NCBI GenBank assembly: GCA_024644405.1
Contig: JAHELC010000039.1
Span: forward strand, 1 to 64,000
DNA from: Nitrospinaceae bacterium
GTDB taxonomy: Bacteria > Nitrospinota > Nitrospinia > Nitrospinales > Nitrospinaceae
Reading direction: 5' to 3'
DNA: 64,000 nucleotides
Under the pieces are notes generated by a model that saw nothing but the letters and a program-made list of their open reading frames with translations, was not told where the DNA came from and did not search any database. Position numbers and translations under genes: made by a program. This document shows, piece after piece, positions 1 through 8,215 of the stretch. Position 1 is the first letter of the stretch. Every line of letters begins with the position of its first letter.

Positions 1-164
1 GGGTGATCGATGAGGGCGAGACGGAATCGGATGAGGATGTGTACGCCCTGTTGGATCTGGAGGATGACGATTTCACCCAGCTGGCCGGATTGGGTAATCA
101 TGATAATAACGGCCAGAACGGCTCCAGAATCAACTGGGACAGCGAATTTAAAGGAATCAACTAA
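1..164 (+). CDS. C-terminal fragment of an acidic protein of unknown function
   Basis: An open frame enters from the left edge (first whole codon at base 3) and stops at TAA 162-164, giving the last 53 residues of a protein. The fragment is rich in Asp, Glu, Asn and Gly and has no Cys, which resembles the low-pI tails of large secreted repeat proteins, but no family can be named from so little sequence. It lies on the same strand and about 340 bases ahead of the DUF3467 gene and the export cassette, so it could be a cargo protein of that cassette; this is inference from position only. The start and all upstream domains are outside the window. Confidence 0.55.
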   Translation, partial: VIDEGETESDEDVYALLDLEDDDFTQLAGLGNHDNNGQNGSRINWDSEFKGIN

Positions 165-509: not shown

Positions 510-869
510 ATGGCAGAGCAAAAAGCTCAGGCAGTAGCCGAGCAAAAAGGAAAGAGTGAACCGGGTAAAGCAAATACCATGTCGAACGAATTCTTAAATT
601 CGCTGACACTGAAATGGGATGATTCGAAGATGCAGACCACATACGCAAACGTGGTAAACGCTTCGAGCACCCGGGAAGAGGTTTCAATTTTCTTTGGGAC
701 CAACCAGTCCTGGAATATTTCTGAAGATCGCGAATTGGCCATTCAGTTGACCGATCGCATGGTTCTCAACCCTTATGCCGCGAAACGTCTTCTGGTATTG
801 TTGTCCCGGATCATCAAGGAATATGAAAACCGTTTCGGAACTTTGAAGTTGGACGGGGACACCCAATAA
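510..869 (+). CDS. DUF3467 family protein
   Basis: This 119-residue protein has the DUF3467 pattern: a YANVV-x-A-x-STREEVSIFFG block near residues 45-63, a region with DRMVLNP, then AAKRLLVLLSRIIKEYENRFG near 90-112. The family is small, soluble and of unknown function. The first 30 residues are a low-complexity Gln/Lys/Glu-rich tail. The ATG at 510 has GGGAG seven bases upstream. The gene is followed by a strong terminator and then by the GAF-HlyD/M50/SecA cassette, and it may act with that cassette, but only proximity suggests this. Confidence 0.82.
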   Translation: MAEQKAQAVAEQKGKSEPGKANTMSNEFLNSLTLKWDDSKMQTTYANVVNASSTREEVSIFFGTNQSWNISEDRELAIQLTDRMVLNPYAAKRLLVLLSRIIKEYENRFGTLKLDGDTQ

Positions 870-920
870 ATTGAACCATCGAAACCATCTTTTTAAAAGA
901 TGGAGCATCGATTTTGTCAT

Positions 921-947
921 CCCCGCCCTTGGGCGGGGATTTTTTTT
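921..947 (+). terminator. Rho-independent terminator after the DUF3467 gene
   Basis: CCCCGCCC (921-928) pairs with GGGCGGGG (931-938), with the innermost bases forming the loop. The hairpin is followed by A and a run of eight T. It separates the DUF3467 transcript from the cassette beginning at 1078, which would then need read-through or its own promoter. Confidence 0.85.
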
Positions 948-1077: not shown

Positions 1078-2958
1078 ATGAAGTCGAAATTTAAATCGGG
1101 AGACAAATCCGAAAAAAACAACGGCCTGAATGATTCCGAGTTATGGAAGAATTTTTCCTGCGCCCAAACTTCCAGCGAGTTTGCCCTTCATTGGTTGAAC
1201 CTGCAATGCCGTTACCTTCCCGGGATACAGCGCGGGGTCGTTGTGCTGGGAGATCCCAAGACCGATTCTTATGCTCCGGCCGCTTTCTGGCCCCAGGACT
1301 CCAATGGAAATATTAATTTGACCCGTGCAGCCGATTTTGCGATCGGTCAAAGAAAAGGCGTGCTGCATGAAGGGCATTCCAAAAACGGGAAAAAAGGTCG
1401 CAAAGGAGAGGAAAATTCTTTTATGGCCTATCCCTTTTTAATCGACGAGAACTTGTACGGAGTGGTTGCCGTGGAGGTCTACACCTCCAATGAGAAAGAA
1501 ACACAACAATCCATGCGTCAGCTGCAATGGGGATCTTCCTGGATGGAAGTGATGATTCGCAGGCAGTTTAACCCGGAGGCTTTACCTGACCGAAAACGCC
1601 TGAGTACAGTTCTCGAACTAATCGCCAGCGGCCTGGAAAACGAACAATTTAAAAAAGCCGCCAACGCCGTAGTTACGGATATGGCCGTGCAGCTTGATTG
1701 CGAGCGTGTCAGCCTGGGATTTATCAAAGGAAAATTTGTAAAGGTAGCCGCATTATCCCACAGCGCTAAATACAACAAAAAGTCGAACTTGATCCGGGAT
1801 ATAGGCCTTGTCATGGATGAAGCCATCGACCAAAAGTCCATGATTATCTACCCCCCCATGGATAAGCAGACCCCATTAATCCATCGGTTGCATGCCGACT
1901 TAAATCAGGAACACGGGGGCGGAGGCGTTTGCACGGTGCCGTTGAGCACAGGGGACAAGATATTCGGTGCATTGACTTTTGAAAAATCCAAAAAAAGTCA
2001 ATTCAGCGAACAGGATGTGCAGCTCTGTGAAACCGCCGCACAGATGGTCGGTCCCATATTACATATTAAGCGTAAAGAGGACCGGTGGATATTGACCAAG
2101 GTCTTACTATCCCTGAAGAATTTTTTGGGAAAACTTTTAGGGCCCCGGCATTTGGGCCGGAAAATGGTATTGATCGTTTTGGCGGCACTGGTGGCTTTCT
2201 TTTATTATGCCATGTGGGATTTTCGGATTGCGGCCGACACCAAAATTGAAGGGGCCGTCCAGCGAGTGGTTGTGGCTCCAATGGAAGGATATATCCAAAA
2301 TTCGTTTGTCAGGCCGGGGGACCTGGTGAAAAGCGGCGACTTGATTTGTCAGCTTGAAGATAAAGACCTGGTTGTCGAAGCCGTTAAATGGGAAAGCCAG
2401 ATTCATCAGTATCAGGGACAGTACCGGGATGCGTTGGCTAAATACAATCGGAGCGAAATAAAGATCTTGAAAGCTCAAATCAAGCAGGCGGAAGCCAAGC
2501 TGGAATTAATCCAGAAGCAATTGAACCGCACCCGTATTTATTCTCCCTTCGACGGGATTATCGTTTCGGGAGATTTGAGCCAATCATTGGGCGCGCCGGT
2601 AGAACGGGGCGAGGTGTTGTATCAATTGGCTCCACTGGATGAATACCGGGTGGTTCTGGAAGTGGATGAGAGGGATATTGCGGAAGTCCAAACCCAGATG
2701 AGGGGAGAACTGGTATTGACCGGGGCGGTCAAGGAGAACCTTCCCTTTATAGTGAAAAAAATTACACCCGTCTCGGAAAACCGGGAGGGAAACAACTTCT
2801 TCAGGGTGGAAGCCGAGTTGCTGGAGCATCGGGATTATCTGCGGCCAGGCATGGAGGGCGTAGGTAAAATCAATGCCGGCGAGCGCAAGTTGATCTGGAT
2901 TTTGACTCGCGAAATGATGAACTGGTTCCGATTAAAAATCTGGACCTGGTGGCCTTAA
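1078..2958 (+). CDS. GAF domain-containing HlyD-family membrane fusion protein
   Basis: This 626-residue protein is a periplasmic adaptor with a large cytoplasmic sensory-type N-terminus. Residues about 20-170 look like a degenerate GAF fold, and residues about 180-340 form a clearer GAF domain. One membrane span lies near 362-380. The periplasmic part begins with a split lipoyl/HlyD half (VVVAPMEGYIQ, then VRPGDLVKSGDLICQLED), then a short coiled-coil hairpin (about 440-485), the second lipoyl half (RIYSPFDGIIVSGDL) and a beta-barrel. The ATG at 1078 is preceded by GAGAAGG. The M50 gene starts 15 bases after its stop, so the two are probably co-transcribed. HlyD adaptors bridge an inner-membrane pump to an outer-membrane channel; a cytoplasmic GAF on such a protein is uncommon and suggests ligand-dependent control. 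Confidence 0.85.
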   Translation: MKSKFKSGDKSEKNNGLNDSELWKNFSCAQTSSEFALHWLNLQCRYLPGIQRGVVVLGDPKTDSYAPAAFWPQDSNGNINLTRAADFAIGQRKGVLHEGHSKNGKKGRKGEENSFMAYPFLIDENLYGVVAVEVYTSNEKETQQSMRQLQWGSSWMEVMIRRQFNPEALPDRKRLSTVLELIASGLENEQFKKAANAVVTDMAVQLDCERVSLGFIKGKFVKVAALSHSAKYNKKSNLIRDIGLVMDEAIDQKSMIIYPPMDKQTPLIHRLHADLNQEHGGGGVCTVPLSTGDKIFGALTFEKSKKSQFSEQDVQLCETAAQMVGPILHIKRKEDRWILTKVLLSLKNFLGKLLGPRHLGRKMVLIVLAALVAFFYYAMWDFRIAADTKIEGAVQRVVVAPMEGYIQNSFVRPGDLVKSGDLICQLEDKDLVVEAVKWESQIHQYQGQYRDALAKYNRSEIKILKAQIKQAEAKLELIQKQLNRTRIYSPFDGIIVSGDLSQSLGAPVERGEVLYQLAPLDEYRVVLEVDERDIAEVQTQMRGELVLTGAVKENLPFIVKKITPVSENREGNNFFRVEAELLEHRDYLRPGMEGVGKINAGERKLIWILTREMMNWFRLKIWTWWP

Positions 2959-2973: not shown

Positions 2974-5124
2974 ATGTCTGTTGATTCGATGTTCAGCCCT
3001 TCCTGGTACCGGGTCGCTGGTCTGCAACCCCGCCTGCGCAGTCATACCCAAATTCACCGCCACTATTACCGCGGGAAAATATGGTTTGTTCTTCAGGACC
3101 ACTCGAGCGGCAGTTACCACCGGTTCAGTCCGCCCGTTTATTATATTCTCTCGCAGATGGATGGCCAACGGACGTTTCAGGAGATCTGGGACCGGGCCGT
3201 TGAGCATTTGGGCGACGACGCTCCCACCCAGGACCAGATGATACGGTTGGCCAGCCAGCTGCATTCCAACGATACCCTGTTGTGTGATGTTCCGCCGGAT
3301 ACGTTCGAATTGTTTCAGCGTCATGAGACTCACCAGAAAATGAAATGGAAGCAGTGGTTCCTGAACCCTCTCTCCTTGCGGTTCCCCTTATTCGATCCCG
3401 AACGCCTGCTGAATCGGATGCTGCCCTGGGTTCGCCCGTTGTTCGGCTGGTTCGGAATCATACTATGGGGCCTGGTCGTTGGATACGCTTTGTATCTTTC
3501 CGGATTGCACTGGGATGCATTGACGGAAAATGTCAGCGACCGGATACTGACACCGGAAAACCTGTTACTGCTCTGGCTCGTATACCCCGTGGTCAAGCTG
3601 GTGCACGAGTTCGGACACGCCTTCGCCGCTAAAAATTGGGGTGGAGAGGTTCATGAAATTGGAATCATGCTGCTCGTGTTCATTCCGGTTCCCTATGTGG
3701 AGGCGTCCAGCGCTTCCGCCTTCCGGGAAAAACACCGGCGGATGATGGTGGATGCCGCAGGGATTGTTGTGGAGTTGCTGTTGGCGGCTATCGCCTTGCT
3801 GGTTTGGGTTCATGTGGAGCACGGGATTGTTCATGCCATTGCCTACAATGTAATTTTAATTGGCAGTGTGTCTACTCTATTTTTCAACGGCAACCCTCTA
3901 TTACGGTTTGACGGTTATTATTTTCTTTCCGATGCCATTGAAGTCCCCAACCTTGGCTCCCGTTCAAACAATTATCTCGGGTACCTGATTCAACGCTACG
4001 GTTTTGGAGTGCGGAACGCGAAATCACCGGCAAACACATCCGGAGAACGTTTTTGGATGTTCACTTATGGAGTTTCCTCCTTCTTCTACAGGATGTTCAT
4101 TGTTGCGGTGATTGCCCTGGTGGTCGCTGAAAAATTCTTTATTGTCGGAGTCCTTTTAGCCACCTGGGCGTTGACCACTATGATCGGAGTACCACTTTAT
4201 AAGAGGCTTAAATTCCTGTTTGCAAGTCCTTCGATCAGCGGGCATCGATTCCGGGCAACCACACTGACCTCAATCTTTGTCGCATCGTTACTGGCTTTTA
4301 TTATTCTGACACCGGTTCCCTACACCACCCGTGCGGAAGGGGTGATTTGGCCGCCGGAAGATTCTCTGGTGCGGGCCGGAACCAATGGGTTTTGCCGGAA
4401 AATTCTTGTGCAATCCGATCAATGGGTTCGAAGAGGGGACCCCCTCATAGTCAGCGAGGATCCTTTGTTGAAATCCGAAAAACGTGTTCTGGAAGCGCGA
4501 TTGCAGGAATTGGAAGCCCGTTATCTGTCATTACGTTACACCGAGCGAGCCAAGGCGCTGATTCAAAAAGAGGAGATCGTTTCCGTTAAAAAGGAATTAA
4601 ACCGCCTTCAGGAACTGGAACAGCAATTGACTATCCGAAGCGGCACGGACGGACAACTGATTCTTATCCGGTCGGAAGACATGAAGGACCGCTTCTTCCA
4701 TAGGGGAGAACTGGTGGGTTATGTCGTAGACTTACCGCTGAACACCGTCCGGGTGGTTGTGCCTCAGGATCATATCGGATTGGTGAGGGAACAAACGGTC
4801 AAAGTTGAAATTCGCCTGGCAGAAAATATTGGAGAAATTTCGGAAGCGATGGTTTTGCGGGAGGTGCCGGCGGCTACAGAAAAATTGCCGAGTGTCGCCC
4901 TGGGTTTTGCAGGCGGCGGTGAAGTTCCGGTAGACCCCCGGGATGAGGAAGGGACGAAAGCCTTTGACTCGGTGTTTCAACTGGATCTGGTATTATCCGA
5001 TCAAGTGAATATGCAAAGGATCGGAGAGCGCGTCTTTGTGCGTTTCGATCATGGCAAGGTGCCCCTGGCGGAGCAATGGTACTATTTCTTCCGCCAACTG
5101 TTTTTAAGGAGGTTCAGCGTTTAA
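2974..5124 (+). CDS. M50-family membrane metalloprotease with PqqD-like N-terminus and HlyD-like C-terminus
   Basis: This 716-residue protein has three parts. Residues about 30-105 resemble a PqqD/RiPP-recognition winged helix (WFVLQDHSSGSYHRF, then MDGQRTFQEIWD). The central membrane region (about 140-450) carries the site-2-protease zinc motif HEFGH near residue 211 and the third-ligand motif NPLLRFDGYY near 306-316, both intact. The C-terminus (about 455-700) is an HlyD/lipoyl-type domain with a coiled coil, as in a membrane fusion protein. This layout matches the peptide zinc metalloprotease proteins found with bacteriocin and RiPP export. AAAGGG lies six bases before the ATG. The SecA-like gene starts immediately after its stop codon with no spacer. 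Confidence 0.85.
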   Translation: MSVDSMFSPSWYRVAGLQPRLRSHTQIHRHYYRGKIWFVLQDHSSGSYHRFSPPVYYILSQMDGQRTFQEIWDRAVEHLGDDAPTQDQMIRLASQLHSNDTLLCDVPPDTFELFQRHETHQKMKWKQWFLNPLSLRFPLFDPERLLNRMLPWVRPLFGWFGIILWGLVVGYALYLSGLHWDALTENVSDRILTPENLLLLWLVYPVVKLVHEFGHAFAAKNWGGEVHEIGIMLLVFIPVPYVEASSASAFREKHRRMMVDAAGIVVELLLAAIALLVWVHVEHGIVHAIAYNVILIGSVSTLFFNGNPLLRFDGYYFLSDAIEVPNLGSRSNNYLGYLIQRYGFGVRNAKSPANTSGERFWMFTYGVSSFFYRMFIVAVIALVVAEKFFIVGVLLATWALTTMIGVPLYKRLKFLFASPSISGHRFRATTLTSIFVASLLAFIILTPVPYTTRAEGVIWPPEDSLVRAGTNGFCRKILVQSDQWVRRGDPLIVSEDPLLKSEKRVLEARLQELEARYLSLRYTERAKALIQKEEIVSVKKELNRLQELEQQLTIRSGTDGQLILIRSEDMKDRFFHRGELVGYVVDLPLNTVRVVVPQDHIGLVREQTVKVEIRLAENIGEISEAMVLREVPAATEKLPSVALGFAGGGEVPVDPRDEEGTKAFDSVFQLDLVLSDQVNMQRIGERVFVRFDHGKVPLAEQWYYFFRQLFLRRFSV

Positions 5125-7104
5125 ATGTTTATTGCAGAATGGGAGCGCTCTGGAACCAACTTGGAGCTTTACCCGGAAAAACAGTGGGAAGAGCCTAATT
5201 GGCTGGAATGGCTTCTGTTAAAGGGCAGCCGGTTTTTCCGTAAGGCCCCTTCTCTCACCCAGATGTACAAATTTGCCCATAAGGTGGAGAAAGCGGAAAA
5301 CCAGTTCCGTCACTTTTCTGAAAAACAGATTTCCCTTTATACAAATAAAATACGGTCCGATCTCCATCAAAACGGATTCACGTCACAATCCGTGGTCGAA
5401 TGCTTTGCCCTGGTACGCGAAGTTTCCCGTCGTACTCTTGGAATGCAGCATTATCCGGTACAAATCATTGGCGGATGCGTCATGCTGAACGGTATGATCG
5501 CCGAAATGGAAACCGGGGAAGGAAAAACCCTCACGGCCACACTGCCTGCCTGCACTGCGGCCCTCGCCGGAATTCCCGTTCATCTGGTTACCGTCAATGA
5601 TTACCTGGTTCAGCGTGATGCGGAGTGGATGGGCCCCATTTACAAGGCTCTTGGATTAAAGGTAGGCACCATTCTGGAAGGTATGGATTTGCCCACCCGC
5701 AAGGAAAGTTATGGTGCGGACATTACATATTGCACCAACAAACAGATCGCTTTTGATTATCTGAAAGACCGTTTGGTTTTCGGCAACAAGCGCGGCCGTC
5801 TCCGGATGAATATCGACCGGTTGAATGACGGGGCTTCGCGGATGGACAAACTTCTGCTGAGAGGCCTGCATTTCGGAATTGTCGATGAAGCGGACAGCGT
5901 TTTGATTGACGAAGCTCGAACCCCTCTGATCATTTCAAAGAATACCGACAACAGTATATCCGAGCAGATTTGCCATCAGGCCCTTCAAATATCGGAAACC
6001 ATGATTTTTGGAAACGATTTTTTGATTTCAGAACGAGACCGTAAAATCGAGTTCACCGCGAGCGGAGAAAACCGCGTGCTGCAAGTGGCAAAAGGTTTTG
6101 GAGGCTTGTGGAAAGGACAGGCGCGTAGTTTGGAACTGGTGAGCCAGGCTCTCAACGCCCGCCATTTGTTTGTCAAGGACAAGCATTATCTCATCCAGGA
6201 CGAGAAGATTCTCATCATTGATGAATTTACGGGTCGGGTCATGCCAGACCGGTCATGGGAACGGGGACTGCATCAAATGATTGAGGCTAAAGAAGACGTT
6301 CCTGTTACCGGCCTGAGAGATACTCTGGCCAAAATCAGCTATCAACAGTTTTTTCGAAGATACCTGGCTTTGGCGGGCATGACCGGGACTGCCAATGAAG
6401 CCTCACGGGAGTTGGAATCGGTCTATCAACTGAAGGTAATGAAAATACCCACCAATCGCAAACCACAAAGGGTTTTTCTTTCTACGAGAACTTTTTCAAG
6501 GGCAGCAGATAAATGGGCGGCCATCGCCACTCGAGCTGAACAAATTCATGCCTTAAAACGGCCGGTTTTAATCGGAACGCGGTCCGTTGCGGACTCCGAG
6601 TTGATCAGTTCTTTATTGTCAGAAAAAAAACTTCCACATCAGACTTTGAATGCGAGACAGGATACTGACGAAGCGAAAGTCGTCGCGCAGGCCGGGCAGG
6701 GGGAGCACATCACCGTAGCCACCAATATGGCCGGACGGGGAACCGATATCAAGCTGGCCCCGGGAATCGCCCAATTGGGAGGCCTTCATGTGATCGCCAG
6801 CGAGCCCCATGAAGCCCGTAGGATTGACCGGCAGTTGTTCGGCCGGTGTGGCAGGCAGGGAGACCCGGGAAGTTATGAGTTGTTCTTTTCGTTGGAGGAT
6901 GAATTGGTGCAAAGCCATGGCCCAACGGCTTTGGTGCGCATGTTTCGTCCCTTCAGGATTAAGGAAAACTCCTGGATCGATAGAGTGATTTTATACTGGA
7001 CTCAAAAATTTGCCGAACGCCATCACGCGAAGATTCGGAAACAACTGCTGAAAGTAGATCAACAAGTCAAAAAGATGTTGGCTTTTTCAGGACAAGCGGA
7101 GTGA
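5125..7104 (+). CDS. Short SecA-like translocation ATPase
   Basis: This 659-residue protein keeps the full SecA motor: the region leading to IAEMETGEGKT (Walker A near residue 131), TVNDYL, VDEADSVLIDEARTP (Walker B near 252), AGMTGTA, GRGTDIKLAPG and IDRQLFGRCGRQGDPGSYE. Canonical SecA is about 830-900 residues. Here only about 80 residues follow the last motor motif, so most of the helical scaffold/wing region and the C-terminal zinc-binding linker (CxCxSGxxxKxCHG) are missing. It therefore cannot simply be housekeeping SecA and is best seen as a SecA paralogue for the cassette. It starts directly at the stop of the M50 gene and overlaps the next gene. Its cargo is unknown. Confidence 0.88.
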   Translation: MFIAEWERSGTNLELYPEKQWEEPNWLEWLLLKGSRFFRKAPSLTQMYKFAHKVEKAENQFRHFSEKQISLYTNKIRSDLHQNGFTSQSVVECFALVREVSRRTLGMQHYPVQIIGGCVMLNGMIAEMETGEGKTLTATLPACTAALAGIPVHLVTVNDYLVQRDAEWMGPIYKALGLKVGTILEGMDLPTRKESYGADITYCTNKQIAFDYLKDRLVFGNKRGRLRMNIDRLNDGASRMDKLLLRGLHFGIVDEADSVLIDEARTPLIISKNTDNSISEQICHQALQISETMIFGNDFLISERDRKIEFTASGENRVLQVAKGFGGLWKGQARSLELVSQALNARHLFVKDKHYLIQDEKILIIDEFTGRVMPDRSWERGLHQMIEAKEDVPVTGLRDTLAKISYQQFFRRYLALAGMTGTANEASRELESVYQLKVMKIPTNRKPQRVFLSTRTFSRAADKWAAIATRAEQIHALKRPVLIGTRSVADSELISSLLSEKKLPHQTLNARQDTDEAKVVAQAGQGEHITVATNMAGRGTDIKLAPGIAQLGGLHVIASEPHEARRIDRQLFGRCGRQGDPGSYELFFSLEDELVQSHGPTALVRMFRPFRIKENSWIDRVILYWTQKFAERHHAKIRKQLLKVDQQVKKMLAFSGQAE

Positions 7105-7109
7105 CTTCT

Positions 7110-7943
7110 ATGGTTCGAATTCTTTTCTATTCGGTGAATACTGTATTTGTTTTTTTATGTTTGAGTATTCACGCATTTGCGGCAAAAAAATCTACCGATG
7201 ATCTGGATTGCGTGATCGAGCCCTATATGACGGTGGAACTCAGCAGTCCCGTGCAGGGCGTTTTGGAAGAAGTTCTGGTCAAACGGGGGGATTCCGTTAA
7301 AAAGGGCCAGGTAGTGGCACGATTGAAATCCGGTGTCGAACAGGCGGGTGTTAATCTGGCAAAGGCGCGTGCGGAAAGTATAACGGAAATCAAGGTGAAT
7401 ACCGAAAAATACGAATTGAGCAAGCGCAGTCTCAAGCGCAGCGAAGAATTGTTTCAAAAACAGTTGATTGCCCCGAATGAACATGATGAGGCTTTAACGA
7501 CTGTCGTCGTGGGAGAGCTGGAAGTTTTGCTGGCAACGGAAAGCAATCACATTGCGCAACTGGAATTGGAACGTGCCATTGAGGTATTAAAATTGCGGAG
7601 TATTATCAGCCCTATTGACGGTATCGTGGTTGAGCGTTATAAATCGCCCGGAGAATTTATCGAGGACCAGCCATTGCTAAAACTGGCGCAGGTGGATCCT
7701 TTAAACGTTGAAGTGATTATTCCTTTATATTGGTTGGGGACTATCAAAAAAGGAATGACCGTCCAGGTGTACCCCGAAAAACCCGTGAAAGGATCTTACC
7801 AGGCCAAAGTTGTCATTGTTGATTCCGTAGTGGATTCAGCCAGCGGCACGTTCGGAGTCCGTCTTGAACTTCCGAACAACAAAAACAGGATACCTGCGGG
7901 ATTGACCTGTGATGTTAAATTTCCCGGAAAACGAAGAAAATAA
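7110..7943 (+). CDS. Exported HlyD-family periplasmic adaptor
   Basis: This 277-residue protein begins with a signal peptide (hydrophobic core VNTVFVFLCLSIHAFA) and carries both lipoyl halves (VELSSPVQGVLEEVLV with RGDSVKKGQVVARL, and IISPIDGIVVERYKSPGE), a coiled-coil hairpin between them, and a C-terminal beta-barrel. I chose ATG 7110 because GGAG at 7098-7101 lies eight bases upstream; a GTG at 7101 overlapping the SecA-like stop is the alternative. It is the second adaptor of the cassette and is shorter than typical RND adaptors. No inner-membrane ABC or RND pump and no TolC gene is next to it, so the M50 and SecA-like proteins may take the pump role, or the channel is encoded elsewhere. 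Confidence 0.85.
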   Translation: MVRILFYSVNTVFVFLCLSIHAFAAKKSTDDLDCVIEPYMTVELSSPVQGVLEEVLVKRGDSVKKGQVVARLKSGVEQAGVNLAKARAESITEIKVNTEKYELSKRSLKRSEELFQKQLIAPNEHDEALTTVVVGELEVLLATESNHIAQLELERAIEVLKLRSIISPIDGIVVERYKSPGEFIEDQPLLKLAQVDPLNVEVIIPLYWLGTIKKGMTVQVYPEKPVKGSYQAKVVIVDSVVDSASGTFGVRLELPNNKNRIPAGLTCDVKFPGKRRK

Positions 7944-8128: not shown

Positions 8129-8215
8129 TGGTGCGAGGGGCGGGAATCGAACCCGCACGAGGTTTCCCTCACAGGATTTTAAGTCCTGGGCGTCTACCAG
8201 TTCCGCCACCCTCGC
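8129..8215 (-). tRNA. tRNA-Leu (anticodon UAA)
   Basis: The gene reads 87 bases on the minus strand including an encoded CCA. The acceptor GCGAGGG pairs with CCCTCGC. The anticodon stem CAGGA/TCCTG encloses the loop CTTAAAA with anticodon TAA. A long variable arm (TGAGGGAAACCTCG) shows the class II type typical of Leu. The T arm reads GCGGGTTCGATTCCCGC. Confidence 0.97.

Follow-up and report, generated by a model that had tools for sequence, protein, structure and literature searches.

A Nitrospinaceae gene cassette with an RRE-like domain fused to an M50 protease: a probable type I-like exporter of giant LEPR-led proteins

The DNA analysed here (the window) comprises the first 64,000 nucleotides of contig JAHELC010000039.1, part of a 2.98 Mb, 40-contig genome of a Nitrospinaceae bacterium (GCA_024644405.1). 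A run of plus-strand genes lies at the contig start, where it opens with a truncated gene (1..164, frame 3–164) encoding the C-terminal 53 aa of a protein (VIDEGETESDEDVYALLDLEDDDFTQLAGLGNHDNNGQNGSRINWDSEFKGIN) in the position held by a giant cargo gene in relatives. It is followed by a gene for a 119-aa DUF3467 protein (510..869; Pfam PF11950, E = 1.7e-19), a small protein often encoded between the cargo gene and those of the exporter, and found at the corresponding place in several plasmid relatives. The interval 5' of this gene (165–509) is a long AT-rich leader, well conserved in comparison with a congener, with a candidate promoter element (TTGACA) at approximately 298 and no match in Rfam. 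An intrinsic terminator (919..940, plus strand), which is base-for-base identical in the nearest relative, marks the boundary between DUF3467 and the exporter operon.

The exporter operon, also on the plus strand, encodes a 626-aa GAF and HlyD/RND-type membrane fusion protein (1078..2958; Pfam GAF_2, HlyD_3 and HlyD_D23), a 716-aa fusion of a PqqD-like/RRE domain, an M50 protease and an HlyD-like part (2974..5124, open reading frame with ATG start; Pfam, NCBIfam and predicted fold), a 659-aa secondary SecA_DEAD ATPase with GEGKT and VDEAD motifs (5125..7104; Pfam), and a second HlyD/RND-type adaptor of 280 aa with an N-terminal hydrophobic segment (7101..7943; TIGR01730, 124.5 bits, above the cut-off). 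According to Pfam, the ATPase retains the DEAD, preprotein cross-linking and P-loop domains and lacks the SecA_SW scaffold/wing; the canonical SecA is encoded separately in the same genome, by an 858-aa frame on another contig (C30). No ABC transporter was detected among the cassette genes with Pfam or NCBIfam, and no TolC gene is present in the window cassette. A tRNA-Leu(taa) gene is located on the minus strand at 8129–8215, 186 bp beyond the cassette end, and the G+C content of the cassette (41–53%) is mostly below that of the genes after it (50–58%); together, the tRNA and this shift mark a possible island boundary. The tRNA was the only feature above threshold in an Rfam scan of the window, and matches to anti-hemB and NsiR1 were discarded as sub-threshold.

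The same four genes make up the type I-related locus described by Kamneva, Poudel and Ward in 2015, i.e., GAF-HlyD, Peptidase_M50-HlyD, SecA_DEAD without SecA_SW, and HlyD (PMC4452313). As in their description, the SecA_SW-less SecA_DEAD protein of the window genome occurs beside a canonical SecA. The secondary SecA_DEAD locus was reported to have spread horizontally, Nitrospirae included, and its wider biological role was called ‘completely unknown’ (PMC4452313). In line with horizontal arrival, the cassette was rare in its own phylum, being present in 2 of 77 genomes, the window genome and one congener, both from one genus. The main text of the 2015 paper names no cargo, PqqD/RRE domain, DUF3467 or LEPR element (PMC4452313).

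The initial annotation had described the 2974–5124 gene as a fusion of a PqqD-like domain, an M50 protease and an HlyD tail, and this architecture was borne out among its 14 homologues from Alphaproteobacteria and Myxococcota, where Pfam PqqD and M50 were each matched in 14/14 and HlyD_3 in 13/14. For the N-terminal domain, the PqqD match of the window protein was below the curated cut-off (E = 0.022 for the whole protein, residues 39–99; E = 0.0014 for the isolated 119-aa domain); the best match among the homologues was at 1e-7. A whole-protein sequence search of the PDB returned no match. When a 14-sequence profile of the domain was compared with the PDB, PqqD 3g2b ranked first (E = 3.2e-4), followed by TfuB1 6jx3 (0.057) and PqqD 5sxy (0.31), the latter two being weak on their own.

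An AlphaFold2 model of residues 1–115, built from an alignment of 3 sequences only, was of moderate confidence (pLDDT 65, pTM 0.60) and predicted a βββ-ααα winged helix (β24–32, β35–42, β47–51, α53–61, α68–82, α86–97), the fold on which the initial reading of this region depended. A full-length model, also from 3 sequences, was unusable beyond secondary structure (pLDDT 39.5), and two scans of viral contigs yielded no further homologues. In structural comparisons with Foldseek and VIA, the top matches of the predicted domain were leader-bound RREs (5v1u, Z 6.7; 6jx3, Z 6.6; 5v1v, Z 6.5), followed by parts of the sactipeptide enzyme 5wgg/5why and of the heterocyclase 4v1u/4v1v. Z values below 8 may reflect common arrangements; nevertheless, nearly all top matches belonged to one functional family, in agreement with the sequence result. 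Judged by profile and predicted fold, the N-terminus is thus an RRE-like fold, as the initial annotation had stated, with its limits shifted from residues 30–105 to approximately 18–101 (3025..3276, plus strand). This fold is common to PqqD and to the lasso-peptide RREs TbiB1 and TfuB1 (Z 6.5–6.7; E = 3e-4 for PqqD). Unlike those proteins, the window RRE is fused to a protease-adaptor and has no modifying enzyme, and the leader motif proposed for it is LEPR-x-LLSAD. Within the domain, R50 on β3 was invariant, and Q86, L96 and H97 on α3 were near-invariant. We take β3 and α3 to form the groove in which RREs hold their leaders, as in RRE–leader structures.

With regard to the M50 part, the Pfam match in the window protein was slightly below the cut-off (E = 9e-6). 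The HEFGH zinc/catalytic motif (residues 211–215; 3604..3618, plus strand) and the third ligand, D313 (3910–3912, plus strand) within NPLLRFDGY (FDG, residues 312–314), were intact: H211, E212, G214 and H215, together with F312-D313 of NPLLxFDGY, were invariant in 14/14 homologues across phyla. Since H211, E212, H215 and D313 are all retained, this part is, on sequence grounds, probably an active protease. Kamneva et al. suggested instead that the M50 protein is a membrane pore that replaces the ABC transporter (PMC4452313), and both the lack of an ABC transporter at the locus and the several TM helices of the protein agree with that proposal (PMC4452313). A bare pore would, however, have no need of the catalytic-motif residues that are invariant across phyla, and we therefore consider it unlikely that the protein serves as a pore rather than as a protease acting on the cargo; a pore that also crops leaders would combine the two roles, which are compatible and not exclusive. 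The C-terminal part (residues ~447–716; 4312..5121, plus strand) is an HlyD-like periplasmic adaptor, supported by TIGR01843 (E = 6e-6 at residues 429–549) and by HlyD_3 in the homologues.

RREs are typical of RiPP pathways, and the initial annotation had linked the protein to the export of a modified peptide. In such a pathway, a small modified peptide would have its leader read by the RRE and cleaved by the M50 part, and the HlyD parts would export the product. The best NCBIfam match of the 716-aa protein, the daptide intramembrane metalloprotease NF041824 (E = 9e-44, residues 19–408), points in this direction, and the PqqD-like plus M50 order is shared with the daptide protease among the M50 RiPP proteases of the daptide and YydH-LiaK types (NF041824, NF058609). 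The score was nevertheless 150.1 bits against a curated cut-off of 300 bits, i.e., half of it, and the window protein differs from these proteases in its HlyD tail and in a cargo that, going by relatives, is giant rather than a peptide. Further, no RiPP tailoring enzyme was found in the cassette with Pfam or NCBIfam, and a comparison of both flanks with the nearest relative (the upstream flank ending at the contig start) revealed no conserved small precursor ORF, so that the search for small leader-like ORFs proposed in the initial annotation came out negative. Taken together with the giant cargos in relatives, these results largely refute RiPP export, which we now regard as very improbable.

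The neighbour of the cassette in relatives was a giant gene encoding 4,000–13,000 aa. On plasmids, giants annotated as LEPR-XLL were located directly upstream of the cassette in Pseudosulfitobacter (38.8 kb), Pontibrevibacter (31.8 kb) and Thalassospira (12.1 kb), and giants under other names in Mesorhizobium (31.6 kb), Methylosinus (26.5 kb) and Alisedimentitalea (24.4 kb); in Rhizobium beringeri, the giant frame was in two pieces. When the open frames were read directly, EPR-x-LL-[SNA]-AD was present in 11/11 readable plasmid cargo starts, annotated or not, mostly 24–65 residues from the start. In contrast to a signal peptide, the stretch ahead of the motif was in no case strongly hydrophobic, and it was usually basic. 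In the Alisedimentitalea giant, a calcium-binding gene, the annotated start lies 3' of the LEPR element and an in-frame start further upstream restores the motif; the element is probably under-annotated. LEPR-XLL proteins are catalogued as NCBIfam NF012209 (LEPR-8K), a family defined by a 24-position motif which, in the relatives, is the N-terminal element of the giants beside the cassette, and to which none of the literature searched assigns an exporter. The initial annotation had expected a cargo with a leader peptide: a leader-like N-terminus, LEPR-x-LLSAD, was indeed found in the cargos of relatives, although on giant proteins rather than a small one.

Cassette and LEPR element also co-occurred beyond the plasmids. 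In a sample of 379 genomes from the phylum to which the Myxococcota relative belongs, 14 genomes had a LEPR-8K match and 21 encoded the full PqqD-M50-HlyD protein, the latter including 13 of the 14 LEPR-8K genomes (Fisher p = 6e-18, a value that overstates independence, as the genomes are related). An M50 gene was on the same contig within ~26 kb, and often divergent, for 11/18 LEPR matches. LEPR-8K was not matched in 8 of the 21 cassette genomes; one of these carries a divergent giant gene with the variant start VEELDARILMSADL, which indicates that the LEPR motif can vary. Conversely, a 27-aa leader query matched 10 of 72,556 plasmids, eight of which carry the cassette; in the ninth, from Terrarubrum, a giant gene of 16.4 kb stands next to an HlyD gene, and the tenth match had E = 9.

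The truncated gene of the window (1–164) matches in position the giant located upstream of DUF3467 on the Methylosinus, Thalassospira, Pontibrevibacter and Mesorhizobium plasmids, and, going by this position only, we infer that it is the window's own LEPR cargo, with 53 C-terminal residues assembled. This tail had no significant similarity to other cargos. The end of another contig of the same genome (C16) carries a tail that is 98% identical over 120 bp; two genes therefore share the same tail, which is probably why the assembly breaks there. A LEPR start was not found in the window genome by family, pattern or contig ends (four contig stretches consist of N) or in one cassette-bearing congener, and LEPR-8K was matched in 0 of 77 genomes of the phylum, a result that does not show absence.

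All members of the cassette travel together, and co-occurrence is blind to which of them reads the leader; the leader of a genuine LEPR exporter could in principle be read by the SecA-like ATPase or by GAF-HlyD, the RRE being structural or vestigial. A distant sister system in Kosakonia and Niveispirillum bears on this point, since it comprises TolC, two HlyD proteins and M50-HlyD and has no SecA gene, and its large DUF4347/Ig cargos nonetheless start with LEPRMLFDGA or LEPRMMFDAA. Pfam did not call PqqD in the sister M50 protein; an hhalign comparison nevertheless aligned its N-terminus collinearly with the RRE of the window across 101 columns (79%). Likewise, the cassette of the Thalassospira plasmid includes TolC and a LEPR cargo, but its run of genes contains none for a SecA-like protein. 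It is thus the RRE-M50 protein, and neither SecA nor GAF, that the LEPR element accompanies. Mainly for this reason, and also considering that the conserved residues of the domain fall on β3 and α3, the RRE groove, recognition of the leader by another component seems to us doubtful, and we assign this role, from sequence comparison, to the RRE.

Our preferred interpretation, which we hold to be probable, is that the cassette is a type I-like exporter of giant LEPR-led proteins that are read by the RRE, cropped by the M50 protease and driven by the SecA-like ATPase. It starts from the domain content, the intact active-site motifs, and the observation that cassette and LEPR giants are physically linked and co-occur in relatives; binding of the leader by the RRE, its cleavage and the energetics are steps that we infer. 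The cargo would be made with an N-terminal leader, mostly basic and non-hydrophobic, containing LEPR-x-LLSAD, which the cytoplasmic N-terminal RRE of the M50-HlyD fusion may bind and so deliver the cargo to the complex in the membrane. Cropping of the leader would fall to the M50 intramembrane protease, and the SecA-like ATPase, devoid of the wing/scaffold that canonical SecA uses with SecYEG, would push the chain into a conduit putatively formed by a TolC-type channel together with M50-HlyD, GAF-HlyD and the small HlyD proteins. This scheme has HlyD-family adaptors and large cargos in common with classical type I secretion (HlyB/HlyD/TolC); in contrast to the classical system, the cassette has a SecA-like ATPase and no ABC transporter, and the proposed targeting element is N-terminal rather than C-terminal.

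A wider reading, to which we give about even chances, is that RRE-guided protein secretion constitutes a distinct two-membrane export route present in several phyla, with an N-terminal LEPR leader, a SecA-like branch and a SecA-less sister branch. The export locus (described in 2015 without a cargo) and the start tag of giant proteins (NCBIfam LEPR-8K, without an exporter) had been known apart, and no literature link of LEPR-XLL, PqqD or giant proteins to the secondary SecA locus was found in a search outside which lay most subscription papers and all preprints. The RRE domain is offered as the link between them, which makes the recognition step testable. If correct, this would explain how bacteria export some of their largest proteins, a SecA paralogue found in Gram-negative bacteria would gain a function, and the leaders recognised by RREs would include those of giant proteins as well as those of peptides, so that these domains would serve general protein export and not peptide natural products alone.

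Several further observations were made on the cargos. Towards the C-terminus, LEPR cargos share a motif of the approximate form hx[FYW]D[DE]xxGx[FW] (e.g., LVYDDETGNF, WVFDEATGTF and LYFDDSEADF), which was matched in 9 of 14 cargo tails vs. 8 times in 87,593 body residues, the pattern having been derived from the same tails; the 53-aa tail of the window did not match it. This motif could represent a second, C-terminal signal. The C16 gene, which has the same 43-residue tail, has no exporter cassette downstream and neighbours a DsbA-like thioredoxin gene; it is possibly an orphan second cargo. Finally, the Pseudosulfitobacter plasmid carries two large genes of LEPR type and has M50 at two places, which suggests paired cassettes.
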